This document shows, one piece after another, positions 2,934 to 18,046 of a stretch of 21,485 bases of DNA. Made by a program: the position numbers and the translations under genes. The stretch is taken from IMG/VR virus record IMGVR_UViG_3300046809_000259, positions 1 to 21,485 of that record; one strand, written 5' to 3'. Under the pieces are notes generated by a model. That model did no database searches. It worked only from the letters and a program-made list of their open reading frames with translations, and had not been told where the DNA came from. Each line of letters begins with the position of its first letter. Positions within the stretch are counted from its first letter, which is position 1. This DNA is from a virus.

Positions 2934-3052
2934 CCGGCATCGAGGCGGACGACGTGAGTTTCATTCTGCCGCCGTTCGAAACAATCCGACACCGCGCCAA
3001 GGATAGCCGTATCGACCGGGAACTGGCTGATCTGTTCGGCGCGCCGGCATAA
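2909..3052 (+). pseudogene. SNF2-type helicase fragment, 5' part, out of frame
   Basis: This frame encodes MAEKPSNLTGIEADDVSFIL, then PPFETIRHRAKDSRIDRELA and DLFGAPA, ending in TAA. The following helicase text (NATTLHEVKRQTSEARAEAA) continues in another frame from about 3049. The two read as one protein if the frame is shifted by one base near 3046-3052. The whole N-terminal RecA-like ATPase lobe, with Walker A and the DEAD/DEAH motif, is absent upstream. I infer a decayed helicase with both a 5' deletion and a frameshift. Confidence 0.55.
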
Positions 3053-3120
3053 ATGCGACGACGCTTCATGAGGTCAAGCGGCAGACCAGCGAGGCCCGCG
3101 CGGAAGCCGCCGCGGCCGTC

Positions 3121-3618
3121 GTGAGAGCCGAGAAGGGCCAGCCGTGGATTATTTGGACAGACACGGATTATGAAGCTGATGCGGTTCGCAAAGTGCTTCC
3201 TGATGCGATTGAGGTCCGCGGCTCGCAATCGATCGAAGAAAAGGAAGAAAAGCTAAACGCCTTCGCACTTGGAAAGGTCGATATCCTCATCGGAAAGCCC
3301 AGCATGATCGGCTTCGGATCTGACTGGTCGCACTGCGCCCGCATGGCGTTCCTGGGGCGCAGCTACAGCTACGAGACATGGTATCAGGCCGTGCGGCGAT
3401 GCTGGCGGTTCGGACAAAAGCGCAAGGTCGTGGTGCATTTGATCGTGGCCGAGGGAGAGACGGAGATCGGCCGCGTAATCGATCGGAAAGCTGGCGACCA
3501 TGCCCGCATGAAAGACGCCATGCGTCACGCGATGTTGCGCGCGACTGGACGCTCGGCAATTGTCAAGGAAGTCTACAATCCAACTCAAAAAGCGAAGGTG
3601 CCCGAATGGCTACGGTGA
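3121..3618 (+). CDS. C-terminal lobe of a SNF2-like DNA helicase (remnant)
   Basis: The product matches the second RecA-like lobe of phage SNF2/DEAD helicases. PWIIWTDTDYEADAVRKVLP and IEVRGSQSIEEKEEKLNAF come first, then motif V-like GKPSMIGFGSDWSHCARM and motif VI QAVRRCWRFGQKRK, whose arginines would contact ATP. GTG 3121 is only the first formal start and has no ribosome site. The same frame is open from 3031 and encodes matching helicase sequence, so this is the tail of a longer gene rather than a complete enzyme. Without lobe 1 it cannot hydrolyse ATP. A separately expressed remnant is possible but not shown. Confidence 0.65.
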   Translation: MRAEKGQPWIIWTDTDYEADAVRKVLPDAIEVRGSQSIEEKEEKLNAFALGKVDILIGKPSMIGFGSDWSHCARMAFLGRSYSYETWYQAVRRCWRFGQKRKVVVHLIVAEGETEIGRVIDRKAGDHARMKDAMRHAMLRATGRSAIVKEVYNPTQKAKVPEWLR

Positions 3619-4016
3619 CATTCCCATGTGAACAATGCGGGAAGGTAGTTTCAGTATACCGCAGCCCGTCTAACATGAAGAAATATCCTCCTAAGTTTTG
3701 TAGCTTGAAGTGTACTGGCGCGGCTCAGCGTGGTGCAGGAAATCCCGCATATAATGGAGGTCGATACATTGATCCTAATGGCTATGTGCATGTGTTTTCT
3801 CCTAACTATCCTAATTGTGATTGCAGAGGATATATTTATGAGCATAGAGTGGTGGCTGAACAAAAATTAGGTAGAAGTTTACTCGATGGAGAAGTTGTCC
3901 ATCACATCAACGAGATTAAGATAGACAATCGTCCCGAGAACATTGTGGTCTGTGCTTCTCAGGCCGAACACATGAACACTTATCATCGCAGGGGGCAAAG
4001 ATGGTGCAAAAGATAA
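3606..4016 (+). CDS. freestanding HNH homing-type endonuclease
   Basis: The 136-residue protein has an N-terminal zinc knuckle (C8/C11 with C32/C36) and an HNH nuclease core: H80, the HH pair at 99-100 (GEVVHHINEIKIDNRPENIV), and N108. This is the ββα-metal fold that cuts DNA. Its start overlaps the helicase end and its end overlaps the methyltransferase start, so it is wedged between two genes. Its DNA is visibly richer in A+T than its neighbours, a sign of recent transfer. It is presumably a selfish homing gene acting on an allele lacking it; its target site is not known. Confidence 0.85.
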   Translation: MATVTFPCEQCGKVVSVYRSPSNMKKYPPKFCSLKCTGAAQRGAGNPAYNGGRYIDPNGYVHVFSPNYPNCDCRGYIYEHRVVAEQKLGRSLLDGEVVHHINEIKIDNRPENIVVCASQAEHMNTYHRRGQRWCKR

Positions 4017-4900
4017 AATGTCTTGGTGCCGAACATGGAGATAAGTGGAGCGCGATTTGGGGAGATTGCGTTGATGTATTGTCTCAAATTCCATCAGAAA
4101 GTGTGGGATTTTCTTGCTATAGCCCCCCGTTCGGATCGCTGTTCGTCTATTCCGAGTCTGCCGCTGACATGGGAAACAGCACAGACGAGGAATTTGCGCA
4201 GCATTATGCCTACCTCGTGCGAGAGAAGTTCAGGGTGACTATGCCGGGGCGACTGACAGCCGTGCATTGCTCCGATCTGCCGATGACGAAATGGAGGGAT
4301 GGGGCAGTCGGCATCAAGGATTTCTCCGGGCAGATCATCCGCATACACGAGGATGCCGGCTGGATTTTGCACGGGCGACGGACCATCTGGAAGTGCCCCG
4401 TTGTCGAGATGACGCGCACGAAGCACGTCGGCCTGCTCTACAAGCAATTGCAGAAGGATAGCAGCAAGTCCCGCGGAGGGATGCCGGACTATCTTCTGAC
4501 ATTCATCAAGCCCGGCGAGAATGCTGAGTTGATCGCGCACACGCCGCAGGATTTTCCGCTCGATCAATGGCAGGAATGGGCGTCCCCTGTGTGGATGTCG
4601 GTTGACCAATCCAATGTGCTCAACGTCAAGGCTGCCAAGACGGCTGGCGACGAGCGCCATCTGTGCCCGCTGCAATTAGATGTGATCGACAGGGCCGTCA
4701 TCATGTGGTCGAACCCCGGCAATGTGGTGCTCTCGCCGTTCATGGGGATAGGCTCGGAAGGAGTTCGATCTCTGGCGCTCGGCCGCAAGTTCTTTGGTGT
4801 CGAGTTGAAAGAGGCATACTGGAAGCAGGCTTGCCGCTACATGCGCGCCGAGGAAGATCAAGGCGGCCTATTCTCAATCCCTAGTGTGGCGGCCGAGTGA
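4001..4900 (+). CDS. DNA methyltransferase (N6-adenine/N4-cytosine class)
   Basis: The 299-residue protein carries the catalytic motif IV SPPF at residues 41-44 (CYSPPFGSLF) near its N-terminus. The SAM-binding region is near the C-terminus (VVLSPFMGIGSEGVRSLALG, RKFFGVELKEAYW). This is the β-like order of amino-methyltransferases that modify adenine N6 or cytosine N4. No restriction partner is visible, so it is probably an orphan phage methyltransferase that protects phage DNA or modulates packaging or expression. The start has a GGGGG ribosome site inside the preceding HNH gene. The Ser in SPPF is an accepted variant of (D/N/S)PPY/F. Confidence 0.85.
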   Translation: MVQKIKCLGAEHGDKWSAIWGDCVDVLSQIPSESVGFSCYSPPFGSLFVYSESAADMGNSTDEEFAQHYAYLVREKFRVTMPGRLTAVHCSDLPMTKWRDGAVGIKDFSGQIIRIHEDAGWILHGRRTIWKCPVVEMTRTKHVGLLYKQLQKDSSKSRGGMPDYLLTFIKPGENAELIAHTPQDFPLDQWQEWASPVWMSVDQSNVLNVKAAKTAGDERHLCPLQLDVIDRAVIMWSNPGNVVLSPFMGIGSEGVRSLALGRKFFGVELKEAYWKQACRYMRAEEDQGGLFSIPSVAAE

Positions 4901-9656: not shown

Positions 9657-12236
9657 ATGAACGCGCACTCTGGCATCCCGCTATCAGGCGACATCGCGCT
9701 TGATCTGCACCTACAGCCGAAGCAGTGGGTGGCGTTTGATACTCCCGCTACAGAGGTATTATTCGGCGGTGCAGCCTTTGGTGGCAAGAGCCATCTTATG
9801 CGCGTGGCTGCGATTCTGTGGTGCAGTGAAATAGCTGGATTACAGGTTTATTTGTTCCGCCGCATCCGTGATGATCTCGTTAAAAATCATATGGAAGGTC
9901 CTAAGGGGTTTAGGGCGCTGCTGGCGCCGTGGACATCTACTGGAATATGCAGGATTGTTGAGAACGAAATACGGTTCTGGAATGGAAGCAAGGTTTATCT
10001 GTGTCATTGTGAGCACGAGACAGATATATACAAATACCAAGGAGTAGAAGCGCACGTTTTATTAATCGATGAACTTACACATTGGACTGAATCTATGTAC
10101 CGTTTCTTGAGAAATCGTGTGCGCATGGTCGGAATTACTTTGCCGAAGCAGTATGAGGGCCGGTTCCCGCGGATTCTATGCGGGGCTAATCCTGGCAACA
10201 TCGGCCACCTATGGGTCAAGCGGACGTTTATTGAAGGTGATCAGCCGCTGAAGATCAGGTTGATGCCGGCGTCCGAGGGCGGGATGCTGCGGCAGCTCAT
10301 CCCGGCTCGGCTCGAGGACAACGAGATAGGGGTTCACGATGATCCAGAATATGAGGCGCGTTTGGAAGGCCTTGGCTCGGCGACGCTCGTTGCCGCCATG
10401 CGATGGGGAGACTGGGATGTCGTCGAGGGCGCCTTCTTTGACTGTTGGCAGCACCGCAAGCACGTTATCGCGCCGTTCGCTGTTCCAAAGGATTGGGTGC
10501 GCTTTCGCAGCGCTGACTGGGGCTCGGCTAGTCCCGGAAGCGTTGGCTGGTGGGCCGTCGTCCAGGACGATTACAAATTGTTTGACGGCGACGGTGGAAT
10601 TGCCATTGATGAAGTGCTCACTGACGGAGGAGGAATTCGACGAGGCGATGAAAAATTGGCGCCCGGCCATAACGTACTGGGAACCCGACTGCTCCCCCGC
10701 GGTGCCCTCGTCCGCTACCGCGAGGACTACATCGCCAGCGGCCCAGGAAAGGGCCTAAAGCTGACGGCAGAGCAGGTAGCAGATCGGATTATCGAACGCG
10801 AGAAGGACGATCCACGACTTGCGTACGCGGTCCTGGACCCGAGCACGTTCAAGGAGGATGGTGGACCGTCGATTGCGGAGCGGATTAATACGAAGCTCGT
10901 CAAGGCCAAGCTGCCGGCGTTTCGCAAGGCGGATAATGCCAGGGTGACGAAGATCGCTGGGCATGGCAGCGGGCCGATGAGCGGCTGGGACATTGTGAGG
11001 CAGAGGATGATCGGGACGGGAACGGCGGACGATCCGCATCCGACGATCTTCTGGTTTTCTACGTGCTTGAATTCGATCCGCACCATTCCCGCACTGCAGC
11101 ATGACCCGGCACAGCCCGAAGATATTGAAAAGTCGGCCGAGGATCACTGCTTTAGTAGCGATACGCTTGTCAGGACTTCGGAAGGGCTGTATTCTTTCGC
11201 TGAACTGATGGGGAAAACCGGTCTTGTGCGATCTCATGATGGCGAATGGCACCGGTTCCGATCAGTCAGGCTCATTAAGCACGATCAAGAGATGGTGCGC
11301 CTGAATTTCAGCGATGGGGCAGAGATACGATGTACATCAGACCATCAATTTCTGACGGCGAGGGGGTGGATGGCGGCGAGCAATCTTCTGGGATCAGCGA
11401 TCCTGTCGTTATCACAAACACAGCCCAAGAATTTGACGGCAAGAGATATTATTTCTGTGGAGGCCGCTACTATCGAGGACCGGGCGGCCTCCTTCATCGC
11501 CTTGTTTGGATTGCCAACAATGGCGCAATCCCGAAGGGGTGGCATGTCCATCACAAAGATCGTAACCGCCACAACAATGCAATTGCAAATCTTGACTGCA
11601 TGTCTTCGAACGCTCATCAATCCGGCGAGCATGGGGCCGAAACTGGCGCTAGAGGGCGTATCTATATCGAGTGCGCTCGCGAGGCTGCTCGTGAGTGGCA
11701 CGGATCTCCGGAAGGAATTGCTTGGCATCGCGAGCATTATGAGAAGCATTGCGCCGCCGCTATCCACGTTAAAGAGCAAAAAATATGCGAAGCCTGCAAC
11801 GCAACATTTAATGGACGACCAGGGGACAGCAATAGATTTTGCTCGAATGCCTGCAAGTCGCGATGGCGCAGAGCATCTGGAGTGGATGATGAGAAGCGCA
11901 TTTGTGCTGAATGCGGAGAAAGCTTCGTTACCAATAAATATAGCAAACAGAAGCGTTGCTCCTACCGCTGCAGTGGCATCAACAGCGCTCGCACTAGGAC
12001 CGATCTGTTCTGGCGTGAACGAAACAAGTCGCGCTGATGTTTACTGTTTTACGGTTCCAGACACGGGCAACTTTGAGATGGCTAACGGGATGATCGCTGC
12101 CCAATGCGCAGATGATGCCCGCTACGCCTGCTTGTCCCGCCCATGGCTCAAGACCAAGCTTGCGCCCGAGCCTGTGAAGGACGCCTATCGGCCTCCGGGT
12201 GAAGAGATACCGTCTTCGAACTTCAAGGTGCTCTGA
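9657..12236 (+). CDS. terL: large terminase subunit (packaging ATPase/nuclease) interrupted by an intein
   Basis: The 859-codon gene encodes the motor that pumps and cuts phage DNA. Visible motifs are Walker A at residues 37-45 (GGAAFGGKS), Walker B LLIDE at 135-139, coupling motif CGANPG at 175-180, and the RNase H-like nuclease with D287 in SADWG. The last acidic nuclease motif, read across the splice, is SAEDH-CADDARYACLSRPW. Residues 498-816 are an intein (11148-12104); removing it leaves about 540 residues, near the usual size. The ATG overlaps no upstream gene and follows 39 bases after the 9210-9617 gene. Residues around 322-346 may lie in a locally shifted frame (see findings). It should work with the portal at 15995. 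Confidence 0.93.
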   Translation: MNAHSGIPLSGDIALDLHLQPKQWVAFDTPATEVLFGGAAFGGKSHLMRVAAILWCSEIAGLQVYLFRRIRDDLVKNHMEGPKGFRALLAPWTSTGICRIVENEIRFWNGSKVYLCHCEHETDIYKYQGVEAHVLLIDELTHWTESMYRFLRNRVRMVGITLPKQYEGRFPRILCGANPGNIGHLWVKRTFIEGDQPLKIRLMPASEGGMLRQLIPARLEDNEIGVHDDPEYEARLEGLGSATLVAAMRWGDWDVVEGAFFDCWQHRKHVIAPFAVPKDWVRFRSADWGSASPGSVGWWAVVQDDYKLFDGDGGIAIDEVLTDGGGIRRGDEKLAPGHNVLGTRLLPRGALVRYREDYIASGPGKGLKLTAEQVADRIIEREKDDPRLAYAVLDPSTFKEDGGPSIAERINTKLVKAKLPAFRKADNARVTKIAGHGSGPMSGWDIVRQRMIGTGTADDPHPTIFWFSTCLNSIRTIPALQHDPAQPEDIEKSAEDHCFSSDTLVRTSEGLYSFAELMGKTGLVRSHDGEWHRFRSVRLIKHDQEMVRLNFSDGAEIRCTSDHQFLTARGWMAASNLLGSAILSLSQTQPKNLTARDIISVEAATIEDRAASFIALFGLPTMAQSRRGGMSITKIVTATTMQLQILTACLRTLINPASMGPKLALEGVSISSALARLLVSGTDLRKELLGIASIMRSIAPPLSTLKSKKYAKPATQHLMDDQGTAIDFARMPASRDGAEHLEWMMRSAFVLNAEKASLPINIANRSVAPTAAVASTALALGPICSGVNETSRADVYCFTVPDTGNFEMANGMIAAQCADDARYACLSRPWLKTKLAPEPVKDAYRPPGEEIPSSNFKVL
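11148..12104 (+). mobile_element. intein in terL, 319 residues
   Basis: The intein begins with Cys1 in block A (CFSSDTLVRTSEGL). Block B has T63 and H66 (IRCTSDHQFLTARGW). It ends with block F/G VYCFTVPDTGNFEMANGMIAAQ, then Cys+1. Excision would ligate EDH to CADDARY, restoring a conserved terminase motif. Non-canonical features are a terminal Gln instead of Asn and Ala instead of the penultimate His. The middle 227 or so codons show no LAGLIDADG or HNH in the intein frame; they instead overlap a full HNH gene in another frame (11330-12037). Splicing is inferred from the motifs, not shown. Confidence 0.88.
11330..12037 (+). CDS. HNH homing endonuclease nested out of frame inside the terL intein
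   Basis: Read one frame away from terL on the same strand, this 235-residue ORF is a convincing HNH_3-type homing endonuclease. It has RYYFCGGRYYRGPGGLLHRL, then WIANNGAIPKGWHVHHKDRN and RHNNAIANLDCMSSNAHQSG, with core H74/H75 and N83. Two zinc knuckles follow: CEAC...FCSNAC and CAEC...CSYRC. Its ATG lies 9 bases before the T63 codon of intein block B, and its TGA falls just before block F VYCF. No strong ribosome site precedes it, so expression may be by weak internal initiation or frameshifting. It presumably drives spread of the whole intein. Confidence 0.88.
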   Translation: MYIRPSISDGEGVDGGEQSSGISDPVVITNTAQEFDGKRYYFCGGRYYRGPGGLLHRLVWIANNGAIPKGWHVHHKDRNRHNNAIANLDCMSSNAHQSGEHGAETGARGRIYIECAREAAREWHGSPEGIAWHREHYEKHCAAAIHVKEQKICEACNATFNGRPGDSNRFCSNACKSRWRRASGVDDEKRICAECGESFVTNKYSKQKRCSYRCSGINSARTRTDLFWRERNKSR

Positions 12237-15189: not shown

Positions 15190-15219
15190 TGACCACATCG
15201 AGTGGAACGAGCACCCGAC

Positions 15220-16047
15220 ATGACTGAGGCGGAAGATAGACATATTGTCACACGGGCACAAGCCAAGCGGCTCGGGCTCAAGCGGTACTTCACAGGGAAG
15301 CCGTGCAAAAGAGGGCACATAGCAGAGCGCTGGGTTTGTGGTCCATGCATTGTTTGCCAGCGAGAGAATGTCAATCGATGGCATTTGGAAAACCGAGACA
15401 AAGTCAATGCAGGTGCCCAACGGCGACATGAGGCAGATCCTGAGAAGGCAAGATCGAAGAAGCGAGAGTGGCGACGGGACAATCCAGAGAAGGCACGAGA
15501 GGCTGATCGACGCTTTCGAGAGAAGCATCCTGAGAAAAAGCTAAAATGGACTAAGGAATGGATTGAGAGAAACAAAGAACGCCACCAAGAGACGCGTAAA
15601 AAATGGTCTGAACTCAATAAAGAGAAATTGCGGGAATCCAGAGAGAAATGGAAAGACGCCAATCCCGATTTACATTTAGAATCGCTTGAGAAATGGCGGA
15701 TCAACAATCCAGATTTCTTACGCGCAAGCAGGGCTCGGCGTCGAGCAAGGGTCAGAAATGCTGAAGGACGATACACTGCATCTGATCTTCAAGAGATATT
15801 TCAGCGCCAACATGGCTGCTGTATTTATTGCCGTAAGGAATTGGGTGCAAAATATCACGCAGACCATATTGTTGCATTGGCTCGGGGTGGTTCGAATTGG
15901 CCATCTAATATCCAATTATTGTGTCCATCGTGTAATTGCGCCAAAGGCGCCAAGGGGCACGATGAAGTCGCAGCCTTATTGTGTGAGGCGATAGATGCCC
16001 CAGGTCAGTTCAGCGGACGGCACATTAGGAAGGACATGGACGACTGA
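15220..16047 (+). CDS. HNH endonuclease with zinc N-terminus and 15-residue repeats
   Basis: The 275-residue protein has three parts. Residues 10-53 are a Cys/His cluster (C29, H33, C40, C43, C46) of the type that starts some phage HNH proteins. Residues 54-173 are eight 15-residue repeats (see 15379-15738). Residues 198-245 are the HNH core: CIYC (201-204), HADHIVALARGG with D215/H216, N230, and CPSC (235-238). ATG 15220 has GGAACGAG upstream and is preferred over GTG 15202. Its last 53 bases double as the start of the portal gene. It cuts DNA, probably as a freestanding homing gene; the repeats may give the spacing or extra DNA contacts. Confidence 0.88.
   Translation: MTEAEDRHIVTRAQAKRLGLKRYFTGKPCKRGHIAERWVCGPCIVCQRENVNRWHLENRDKVNAGAQRRHEADPEKARSKKREWRRDNPEKAREADRRFREKHPEKKLKWTKEWIERNKERHQETRKKWSELNKEKLRESREKWKDANPDLHLESLEKWRINNPDFLRASRARRRARVRNAEGRYTASDLQEIFQRQHGCCIYCRKELGAKYHADHIVALARGGSNWPSNIQLLCPSCNCAKGAKGHDEVAALLCEAIDAPGQFSGRHIRKDMDD
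15379..15738 (+). repeat. eight 15-residue (45-bp) helical repeats in HNH protein
   Basis: The units are WHLENRDKVNAGAQR, RHEADPEKARSKKRE, WRRDNPEKAREADRR, FREKHPEKKLKWTKE, WIERNKERHQETRKK, WSELNKEKLRESREK, WKDANPDLHLESLEK and WRINNPDFLRASRAR. The consensus is W-x3-N-P-E-K with an aromatic every 15 residues. It is exact in length but diverged in sequence, so the duplication is old and spacing is conserved. Confidence 0.85.
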
Positions 16048-18046
16048 GTCCTACGACGATTACGACTTCAGCAGTTCAGAAGAGGGCTTCTGGCCCGTCT
16101 CTAGGTTGCGTCAGCAATATCTCGACTACTTAACCGCGAAGACTCCTGAGTACGAAGAACAAAAAAATTCACGTCACCTCTATCACGGAGCTCAATGGTC
16201 ACCCGAGGAAATAGAAATCCTCCGCAAGCGCCGCCAGCCTATTATCACGTTCAACCGGATCAATCGCAAGATCGACAGCATCGTTGGTATGGTGCAGCGG
16301 CTTCGGCAGGACCCGAAGGCGTATCCGAAGAATCCGAGGAATGCGGACGGGGCCGAGATTGCGACGCAGGCGGTGCGCTCGGTTCTTGAGGGCAATGAGT
16401 GGCAGTTCCTCGATCCGTACTGCGCCGGCCAAGCGGGGATTGAGGGCATCGGCGGCGTCGAGCTGAAGCTGATTGAGGGCGACCATGAAGACCCGGACGT
16501 GGGCATGGATTTCGTCTACGGGGATGACTGGTTTTACGATCCTCGTTCCCGTAAGCCGGATTTTTCGGATTGCCGTTATCATGGGCTGGCGAAGTGGCTT
16601 GATGTTGAGGCCGCGATTGAGCTTTTCCCGGATCGTGAGGAAGAGCTCCGCACGCTCATGGTTGAGACGGGCTTTGACCTGACGACGCATGCGGATATCG
16701 AGTTCAAGTGGATATACGTCAATGAAAAGCGGCTGCGGCTCGTCGAACATTGGTATCGGCATAAGGGCAAGTGGTACTGGGCGTTCTATTGCTCAATGAT
16801 CCTGCTGGCGCAGGGCGTGTCGCCGTTCCTGGACGAACGCAACAAGCCGATGTCGCGGTTCATCATGTTCTCGGCCGCGGTCGACCATGACGGCGATAGA
16901 TACGGGTTTGTACGTAATTTGAAGGGCCCGCAGGACGAGCTCAACCAGCGACGTTCGAAGGCGTTGTTCATGTCGAACGTGACGCGGTTGATTGCGCAGA
17001 AGGGCGCGGTCGACAGCGTCGAGACGGCGCGCCGGGAGTACGCGCGGCCTGACGGCTATGTCGAGTTCAATATGGGGTTTGATCCTCCGAAGCCTGACGA
17101 CACTGCGGCTGATCTGGCGCAGCAGCTTGCGCTGATGCAGGACGCCCGGCAGGAGATCGACAGCTTCGTGAACATCAATCCGGCATTGATGGGCCAGGAG
17201 GTCGATACGCACTCGGGGGTGGCGATCAATCTGCTGCAGAAGGCCGGCATTGCCGAGCTGGGGACGTTTCTGCGCAACTATCGGGCCTGGAAGATTAGGG
17301 TTTACAAGGCGATCTGGAACATTACGCAGCGGACATGGACTAAGGAACGATATCTCAGAATTAGCGACAACCAGAACTTTGCGCAATTTCTACAGATCAA
17401 TGGCATTGACCGGGATGAATGGGGACAGCCCATTCTTGATGAGTGGGGACAGCCGACCCTTATCAATTTCATCGGCAATCTCAACGTCGAGATTACGATG
17501 GACGAGGGACCGGACGTTGAAAACTTAATGCAGGACACGTACAATTCGATCAAGGACGATCCGACCATTCCGTGGCAGATCAAGCTGGAATTCATGCCGT
17601 TGCCGAGCACATTCAAGAAGAATATCGAGCAGAAGTTGGCGGCGGCTTCGCAGCAGCAGAAGCCCGATCCGAAGATGCAGGCTGCTATGGTGCAGGCGCA
17701 GACGGCCCAGCAGAAGGGCCAAATCGACATCCAGAAGGCGCAGATTGACGCCCAGGCGGCCCAACAGAAGAGCCAAGCCGAAACTGCGGTTGCCCACATG
17801 GCGGCCCAGGCCGAGATCACCAATGCGCAGCAGGACGCGCTTGCCCGGCAGCAGGACGCCCAGCTACAGCGCGAGAAGGCGCAGGCCGAGCGCGAGCAGA
17901 TCAGGATGGAAATGGCGCAGGCCGCGGCTGATCACGCCTACAAGATGCGTGAATTAGCGGCGCAGCATGAAACGCGGCAGGCCGAGCACGCCGCACGGCG
18001 GCAGGCGATCAAGAGCAAGCCGAAGCAATCGGAGGCCAGAATATGA
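15995..18046 (+). CDS. portal protein, P22-like
   Basis: The 683-residue protein is near the length of the P22 portal. It has the family layout: ITFNRINRKIDSIVGMVQRL (a portal-type helix around 85-105), QAVRSVLEGNEWQF, EHWYRHKGKWYWAFY, then HSGVAINLLQKAGIAELGTF and FLRNYRAWKIRVYKAIWNIT. The C-terminal 130 residues are Gln/Ala-rich coiled coil (QAQTAQQKGQIDIQKAQIDA), resembling the portal barrel. It forms the ring through which TerL pumps DNA. The ATG at 15995 lies inside the HNH gene with GAGG upstream. An 8-residue duplication (DEWGQPIL/DEWGQPTL) lies at about 17414-17461. Confidence 0.9.
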   Translation: MPQVSSADGTLGRTWTTESYDDYDFSSSEEGFWPVSRLRQQYLDYLTAKTPEYEEQKNSRHLYHGAQWSPEEIEILRKRRQPIITFNRINRKIDSIVGMVQRLRQDPKAYPKNPRNADGAEIATQAVRSVLEGNEWQFLDPYCAGQAGIEGIGGVELKLIEGDHEDPDVGMDFVYGDDWFYDPRSRKPDFSDCRYHGLAKWLDVEAAIELFPDREEELRTLMVETGFDLTTHADIEFKWIYVNEKRLRLVEHWYRHKGKWYWAFYCSMILLAQGVSPFLDERNKPMSRFIMFSAAVDHDGDRYGFVRNLKGPQDELNQRRSKALFMSNVTRLIAQKGAVDSVETARREYARPDGYVEFNMGFDPPKPDDTAADLAQQLALMQDARQEIDSFVNINPALMGQEVDTHSGVAINLLQKAGIAELGTFLRNYRAWKIRVYKAIWNITQRTWTKERYLRISDNQNFAQFLQINGIDRDEWGQPILDEWGQPTLINFIGNLNVEITMDEGPDVENLMQDTYNSIKDDPTIPWQIKLEFMPLPSTFKKNIEQKLAAASQQQKPDPKMQAAMVQAQTAQQKGQIDIQKAQIDAQAAQQKSQAETAVAHMAAQAEITNAQQDALARQQDAQLQREKAQAEREQIRMEMAQAAADHAYKMRELAAQHETRQAEHAARRQAIKSKPKQSEARI

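Follow-up and report, generated by a model that had tools for sequence, protein, structure and literature searches.

A terminase intein whose DNA also encodes a putative HNH homing endonuclease in a shifted reading frame

In the textbook design an intein uses a single reading frame, and its splicing domain and endonuclease form one polypeptide. A departure from this design, reportedly described by Dassa et al. in 2009 (NAR), is the fractured gene, mostly from phages, in which a free-standing endonuclease gene is said to lie between the halves of a split intein. Another arrangement is the ShiLan insertion in phage methylases, where an HNH gene lies out of frame in a stop-free insertion and homing was proposed (PMC11855218); in their own tests the authors found no splicing domains, and concluded that the insertion stays in the protein (PMC11855218). 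Inteins are also described in TerL, the large terminase subunit, of mycobacteriophages, where they are located in the ATPase domain (Kelley et al. 2016, PMC5050341). The locus analysed here is the terL gene of IMG/VR virus record IMGVR_UViG_3300046809_000259 (positions 1–21,485, which are called the window below). It carries an intein at a nuclease-domain motif, and the same DNA encodes, in a shifted frame and not fused to the intein, an HNH protein that is probably a homing endonuclease. A probability of roughly 85% is assigned to this reading.

The terL frame had been described in the initial annotation as intact from nt 9657 to 12236 with an intein inside, and this holds: 859 codons run without interruption, and both splicing halves are matched by profiles. 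Within it lies the HNH open reading frame (ORF), likewise found as first described, a complete 235-residue protein with two zinc knuckles in a different frame of the same strand. The features are (the slash marks the insertion point):

9657–11147, + strand: terL N-extein, 497 amino acids (aa), with the ATPase and the greater part of the nuclease domain; phrog_979 terminase large subunit, 4e-26; intein-less relatives 42–62% identical
11148–12104, + strand: whole intein, 319 aa, C1 to Q319, then Cys+1; ends set by empty sites EDH/A-ADETRY in relatives
11148–11414, + strand: N-terminal splicing half of the intein (IntN), aa 1–89, with C1 and block B (T63-x-x-H66, at 11334–11345); AlphaFold2 predicted local distance difference test (pLDDT) score about 97; solved inteins match profile columns 1–88
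11330–12037, + strand: out-of-frame ORF for an HNH endonuclease of 235 aa, with GTG 11366 as another candidate start; phrog_15471 HNH endonuclease, 4.7e-41; AlphaFold2 mean pLDDT 89.6
11415–11987, + strand: filler in the intein frame, aa 90–280, overlapping the HNH ORF, predicted disordered; pLDDT 42–59; matches no solved structure
11492–11617, + strand: HNH_3 catalytic domain, HNH residues 55–96; PF13392, E = 7.6e-14
11786–11854, + strand: zinc knuckle 1 (C153, C156, C171, C175); cysteines invariant in 36 relatives
11903–11971, + strand: zinc knuckle 2 (C192, C195, C210, C214); C192, C195 and C210 at least 90% conserved
11988–12104, + strand: C-terminal splicing half of the intein (IntC), aa 281–319, with blocks F and G, ending AAQ; pLDDT 96–98; profile columns 285–317 match solved inteins
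12105–12236, + strand: terL C-extein, 43 aa including its start CADDARYACLSRP, plus stop

Both ends of the intein are fixed by matching empty sites in the intein-less relatives, which read EDHA-ADETRYACMSRP where the window has EDH, the intein and then CADDARYACLSRP. The insertion is precise and in frame, comprises terL residues 498–816 (a 957-bp element), and interrupts the nuclease-domain motif DH/CxDAxRY; the residue at +1 is Cys in the invaded allele and usually Ala in empty alleles. The splicing motifs expected at the two ends are all present (Cys1, block B TxxH, block F, a terminal Gln and Cys+1), and neither C1 nor H66 varies across 48 aligned inteins. The terminal residue is Gln in the window and Asn in most relatives. 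TIGR01445 (intein_Nterm) scores above its own cut-off in terL, while Pfam Intein_splicing matches at 3e-8, slightly below the Pfam cut-off. Excision would leave a TerL of 540 aa, in line with the size of about 540 residues anticipated at the outset.

The HNH ORF lies wholly within the intein, on the strand of terL and with the terL frame at +1 relative to its own; the splicing-domain frame of the window thus holds no endonuclease of the classical fused kind. Residues H56, H74, H75, D77, N83, N87 and H96 of the HNH_3 domain are invariant among the 36 relatives, and both zinc knuckles are of the C4 type. In a profile search the protein matched I-HmuI (PDB 1u3e, 5.7e-4), the sole plausible solved relative found. 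Two details of the initial annotation need correction. The ATG at 11330 precedes the block B Thr codon (11334) by 4 nt, not 9, and the TGA (12035–12037) does not stop short of block F but overlaps its first codon. The HNH may start at the proposed ATG or at GTG 11366.

Taken alone, the window has no stop codon in the intein frame across the HNH ORF, where 5.0 would be expected from the HNH protein and local base composition (p ~0.003), or 1.3 under a harsher null that permutes the ORF's own codons (p ~0.17); the figure of roughly ten given originally was too high. The single locus is therefore moderate evidence for a maintained intein frame, and the comparison across lineages decides. HNH-based searches recovered 81 nested loci in 54 clusters, treated as lineages (HNH below 85% identity), and in all 54 a single ORF contains both IntN and IntC, with the HNH out of frame between them. 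In this class, which was selected by its open frame, not one stop occurs in the intein frame, where synonymous resampling predicts 279 and permutation of own codons 115, whereas the third frame has 887 against 902 expected. The controls were 32 lineages with an HNH of the same family and no need for an open frame (21 free-standing and 11 with a split terL); these have 234 stops, against 246 and 226 expected under the same two nulls. The check on stop frequencies in related inteins that had been proposed thus came out in favour of a maintained frame.

A second search, by the intein C-terminus and independent of any HNH, gave 80 loci in 49 clusters. An intact HNH occurs in the frame relation of the window in 25 clusters and in the other shifted frame in 7, and the others comprise 5 with a truncated or remnant HNH, 9 mini-inteins (linkers of at most 130 nt), 1 split, 1 with an in-frame HNH and 1 of another kind. 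Out-of-frame nesting is thus the rule for inteins at the TerL nuclease site (32 of 49 lineages), with both shifted frames in use. The seven other-frame lineages form one clade (SH-aLRT, a Shimodaira–Hasegawa-like approximate likelihood ratio test, 93), and their nine loci have no host-frame stop, against 9–14 expected per locus and a lowest count of 2–6 in 300 simulations. The one in-frame case is the intein of an RtcB-like protein (L223), which shows the ordinary fused design with a related HNH.

The two frames are maintained differently, which refines the earlier view that both are kept. The HNH is under purifying selection as a protein: compared with codon positions 1 and 2, its third positions are 2–3 times more variable in closer pairs and about twice as variable in most others, and the excess is seen in both frame groups. 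In the overlap, amino-acid identity in the intein frame equals the level imposed by the HNH codons or exceeds it by a few per cent at most, and therefore this frame is mainly kept open rather than kept in sequence. It is in its two splicing halves that the intein frame is conserved. These identities agree with the earlier proposal that the filler is constrained by the HNH. An AlphaFold2 model of the intein, built with the 48 aligned inteins, has a complete Hint fold formed by residues 1–89 and about 280–319 (pLDDT ~97; best match to solved inteins, E 4e-6), while the roughly 190 residues between are mostly at pLDDT 42–59. The structure prediction that had been recommended thus gives confident Hint halves around a filler predicted to be a disordered loop, at the place where an in-frame endonuclease normally sits. 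Profile searches of databases recognised no domain in the filler, and solved inteins match only outside it. A conserved domain in the intein frame was considered for this segment and rejected, given the lack of database matches, the predicted disorder and identities near the HNH-imposed values; its sequence is a by-product of the HNH codons, and its conserved Gly184 only reflects the Trp-His that is conserved in the HNH.

In the proposed mechanism, translation of terL would give a precursor in which the intein folds from its two ends around the long disordered loop and splices to yield the mature TerL, and initiation inside the gene, in the shifted frame, would give a separate HNH/zinc-knuckle protein. 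The latter would cut intein-less terL alleles, and repair would copy the whole element into them. The terL frame would stay open because TerL must be made, and the HNH would stay intact because homing needs it, so that a single stretch of DNA would answer to both demands. The surroundings fit such a life cycle, with empty sites, patchy presence and a decay series among relatives that would lead from an intact HNH through a truncated HNH to a mini-intein. Two kinds of relative had been named in advance as potentially damaging, those with a broken intein frame and those with a broken HNH. The former proved to be separate terL-IntN and IntC-terL ORFs flanking the HNH, and the latter are truncated HNHs, remnants and mini-inteins within an open terL frame; both fit a homing life cycle.

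The decay series also bears on the strongest competing explanation, that the HNH is a packaging accessory which helps TerL to cut DNA, as reported for some terminase-adjacent phage HNHs, and is kept for the benefit of the phage. Free-standing members of the family do adjoin terminase genes in PAE1, SN1, FBPa53, BP10 and EauM-23. A packaging role would nevertheless sit poorly with the patchy presence of the HNH (intein-less relatives at 42–62% identity, mini-inteins, truncated forms), with the location of its gene within an intein, with a homing enzyme as the only solved relative found, and with a nested case in a probable single-strand annealing protein instead of terL. This explanation is accordingly considered improbable.

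Expression of the HNH could be explained in another way, by programmed −1 frameshifting from terL, which would produce a TerL-IntN-HNH fusion and no separate HNH. The HNH does lie in the −1 frame relative to terL throughout the 54-lineage class, and this is the common direction of bacterial frameshifting. However, slippery heptamers near the point of entry occur in just 14 of the 54 lineages, at unrelated positions, so that no slippery site common to the class was found, and the second group has its HNH in the other frame. A start codon (ATG, GTG or TTG), by contrast, is available for every nested HNH (54/54), and Shine-Dalgarno cores are enriched ahead of them: a correctly spaced core of at least 5 nt stands before 18 of the 54, where 3.6 would be expected (no more than 9 in any of 2000 draws), and a core of at least 4 nt before 32, where 15 would be expected, the expectation being taken from same-frame start codons elsewhere in those terL ORFs. 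These data support internal initiation for part of the nested class, and frameshifting is rated as still less probable than a packaging role.

Two further alternatives have next to no likelihood. A self-splicing RNA intron with accidental read-through of terL might be entertained, as group I introns often carry genes of the HNH_3 type, but the window has no match in Rfam, the open terL frame and conserved intein blocks at both ends are found in 54 of 54 lineages, and a Hint fold is predicted with high confidence. Sequencing or assembly frameshifts masking an ordinary in-frame fusion, a possibility raised from the start, would need a pair of compensating errors in every one of the 54 lineages, sequenced isolates such as TJE1 and Highwayman included, and the HNH is 100% identical in nine other metagenome contigs, although one relative (L234, ~2980–3763, related to L045) has a frame break at the HNH end that joins HNH and IntC and may be either a natural variant or an assembly error.

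Several points weigh against the intein with a separately made homing endonuclease that is preferred here. The window intein ends in Gln preceded by Ala, not in His-Asn, and no strong Shine-Dalgarno sequence was found ahead of the HNH in the lineage of the window or in the other-frame group. The best fold hit for the HNH model is again I-HmuI, but it is weak (E 0.017), whereas the profile match is significant. Finally, the zero stops of the nested class are partly definitional, and the weight of that result rests on the number of lineages that qualify, on the presence of terL on both sides, and on the split and free-standing controls.

The layout extends well beyond the window. It is found in terL genes of several families (Terminase_6N, Terminase_3, Terminase_3C, Terminase_6C and T7-like), and it occurs in the isolates Tetrasphaera phage TJE1 and Acinetobacter phage Highwayman, in the complete record of Rhodobacteraceae phage LS06-2018-MD07, and in bacterial or archaeal assemblies (Methyloceanibacter, Bacteroides, Nitrospiraceae, Thermoplasmatales, Acidobacteria and Candidatus Falkowbacteria). 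It is apparently not tied to terL, because in a Dermatophilaceae assembly (L174, 1169–2779) an out-of-frame HNH lies in the intein of a probable single-strand annealing protein (phrog_3290, 3.8e-5); this locus is very GC-rich, which makes its stop-free frame weaker evidence, and no further inteins of the single-strand-annealing type were found in IMG/VR. The Thermoplasmatales case (L167, 2457–4652) has a two-frame intein in terL and, if the contig is correctly assigned, would carry the host range into archaea. Highwayman and BP10 were considered as an empty-site pair and rejected, as the DNA common to their terL genes is limited to the 3' end.

When the nested, split and free states were mapped on a quick tree of 93 HNH proteins, 17 changes were required, and a single clade of window-type nested HNHs was rejected (approximately unbiased test, p 7e-6). 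Free-standing relatives frequently adjoin terL. These observations point to repeated exchange among the three states, to which no direction is assigned. We lean, if only somewhat beyond even odds, towards a broader reading in which two-frame inteins form a class of mobile element that is widespread, arose at least twice, given the use of both shifted frames, interconverts with free HNH genes and split terL, and is one natural source of split inteins. The separate frames would uncouple the evolution of the two proteins, and the overlap may help to preserve the HNH, since an indel that shifts its frame would in most cases also break the essential TerL.

The 11 split lineages keep the HNH family, the intein and the site of the nested class, and consist of a terL-IntN ORF, the HNH and an IntC-terL ORF, with stops present across the HNH; in one of them (L103) the C half alone was detected. 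In Lactobacillus phage CL2 (L034, NC_028835; 506–1954, 1967–2590 and ~2487–2771) terL is annotated as complete, yet ends within the intein, and the C-terminal intein half with the end of terL (HN/CMDATRYF) lies in an unannotated ORF past the HNH gene, forming a natural split-intein terL. The terL of Brochothrix phage BL3 (L031, NC_015254; 727–2301) stops within the intein, gp3 (2311–2607) consists of the C-terminal intein half and terL end, and the HNH between them is reduced to its zinc-knuckle end, so that it looks like a split intein after HNH decay. Vibrio phages 1.238.A and 1.245.O (L156, L157) have terL-IntN, an unannotated HNH and then an ORF with the C-terminal intein half, annotated as a hedgehog/hint domain protein. 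The two-frame layout is overlooked by gene finders; the HNH inside terL is unannotated in several isolates, and some reference-record terL genes lack their last part. Three families of unknown function (phrog_28563, phrog_35162 and phrog_36001) match two-frame intein ORFs (the match in L014 covers the filler and the C-terminal half of the intein) and may be artefact families built from intein pieces. A second intein lies in the Walker A region of terL in L014 and L017, with an in-frame LAGLIDADG domain detected in L014, so both intein designs are present within one terL gene. The window itself has two further HNH genes, one (3378–4016; HNH_3, 2.6e-10) beside a DNA methylase gene (4001–4900), the other (15202–16047; HNH_5, 6.7e-11) overlapping the start of the portal gene (15995–18046).

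Out-of-frame HNH insertions and fractured split-intein genes are thus already published, but a contiguous intein with an out-of-frame endonuclease was not encountered among the open-licence papers searched, and one may be described elsewhere. At this locus splicing and homing would share DNA but not protein, as they would in dozens of lineages of viruses and in assemblies of bacteria and archaea; the result is a natural case of two genes that overlap over a long stretch, with a clean internal control. One site brings together free-standing endonucleases, fractured genes, split inteins and mini-inteins, which makes the routes between them testable.

I-HmuI, which is encoded in a group I intron, and other HNH_3 homing endonucleases share the HNH catalytic core with the window protein, but the DNA-binding part of I-HmuI differs, two zinc knuckles following the HNH in the window. 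As in classical large inteins, the window has splicing blocks, an insertion in a conserved motif and an endonuclease between blocks B and F; theirs, however, is in frame, and the inteins of mycobacteriophage TerL occupy the ATPase domain instead of the nuclease-domain motif. The splicing part and the endonuclease are separate proteins at one locus in fractured genes, as they would be here, and 11 relatives are of that type at the same terL site, with the host gene in two ORFs; the window and 53 other lineages have an uninterrupted intein ORF, which the endonuclease gene overlaps out of frame. The ShiLan insertion likewise hides a zinc-finger HNH in a shifted frame of a phage gene whose own frame is stop-free. 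It differs in that the insertion in the window can be recognised as an intein with both splicing halves, lies in a different gene, and has counterparts in many lineages and in both shifted frames. Splicing out may answer the puzzle that ShiLan poses, of how a protein can accommodate an endonuclease gene inserted in its own gene out of frame.
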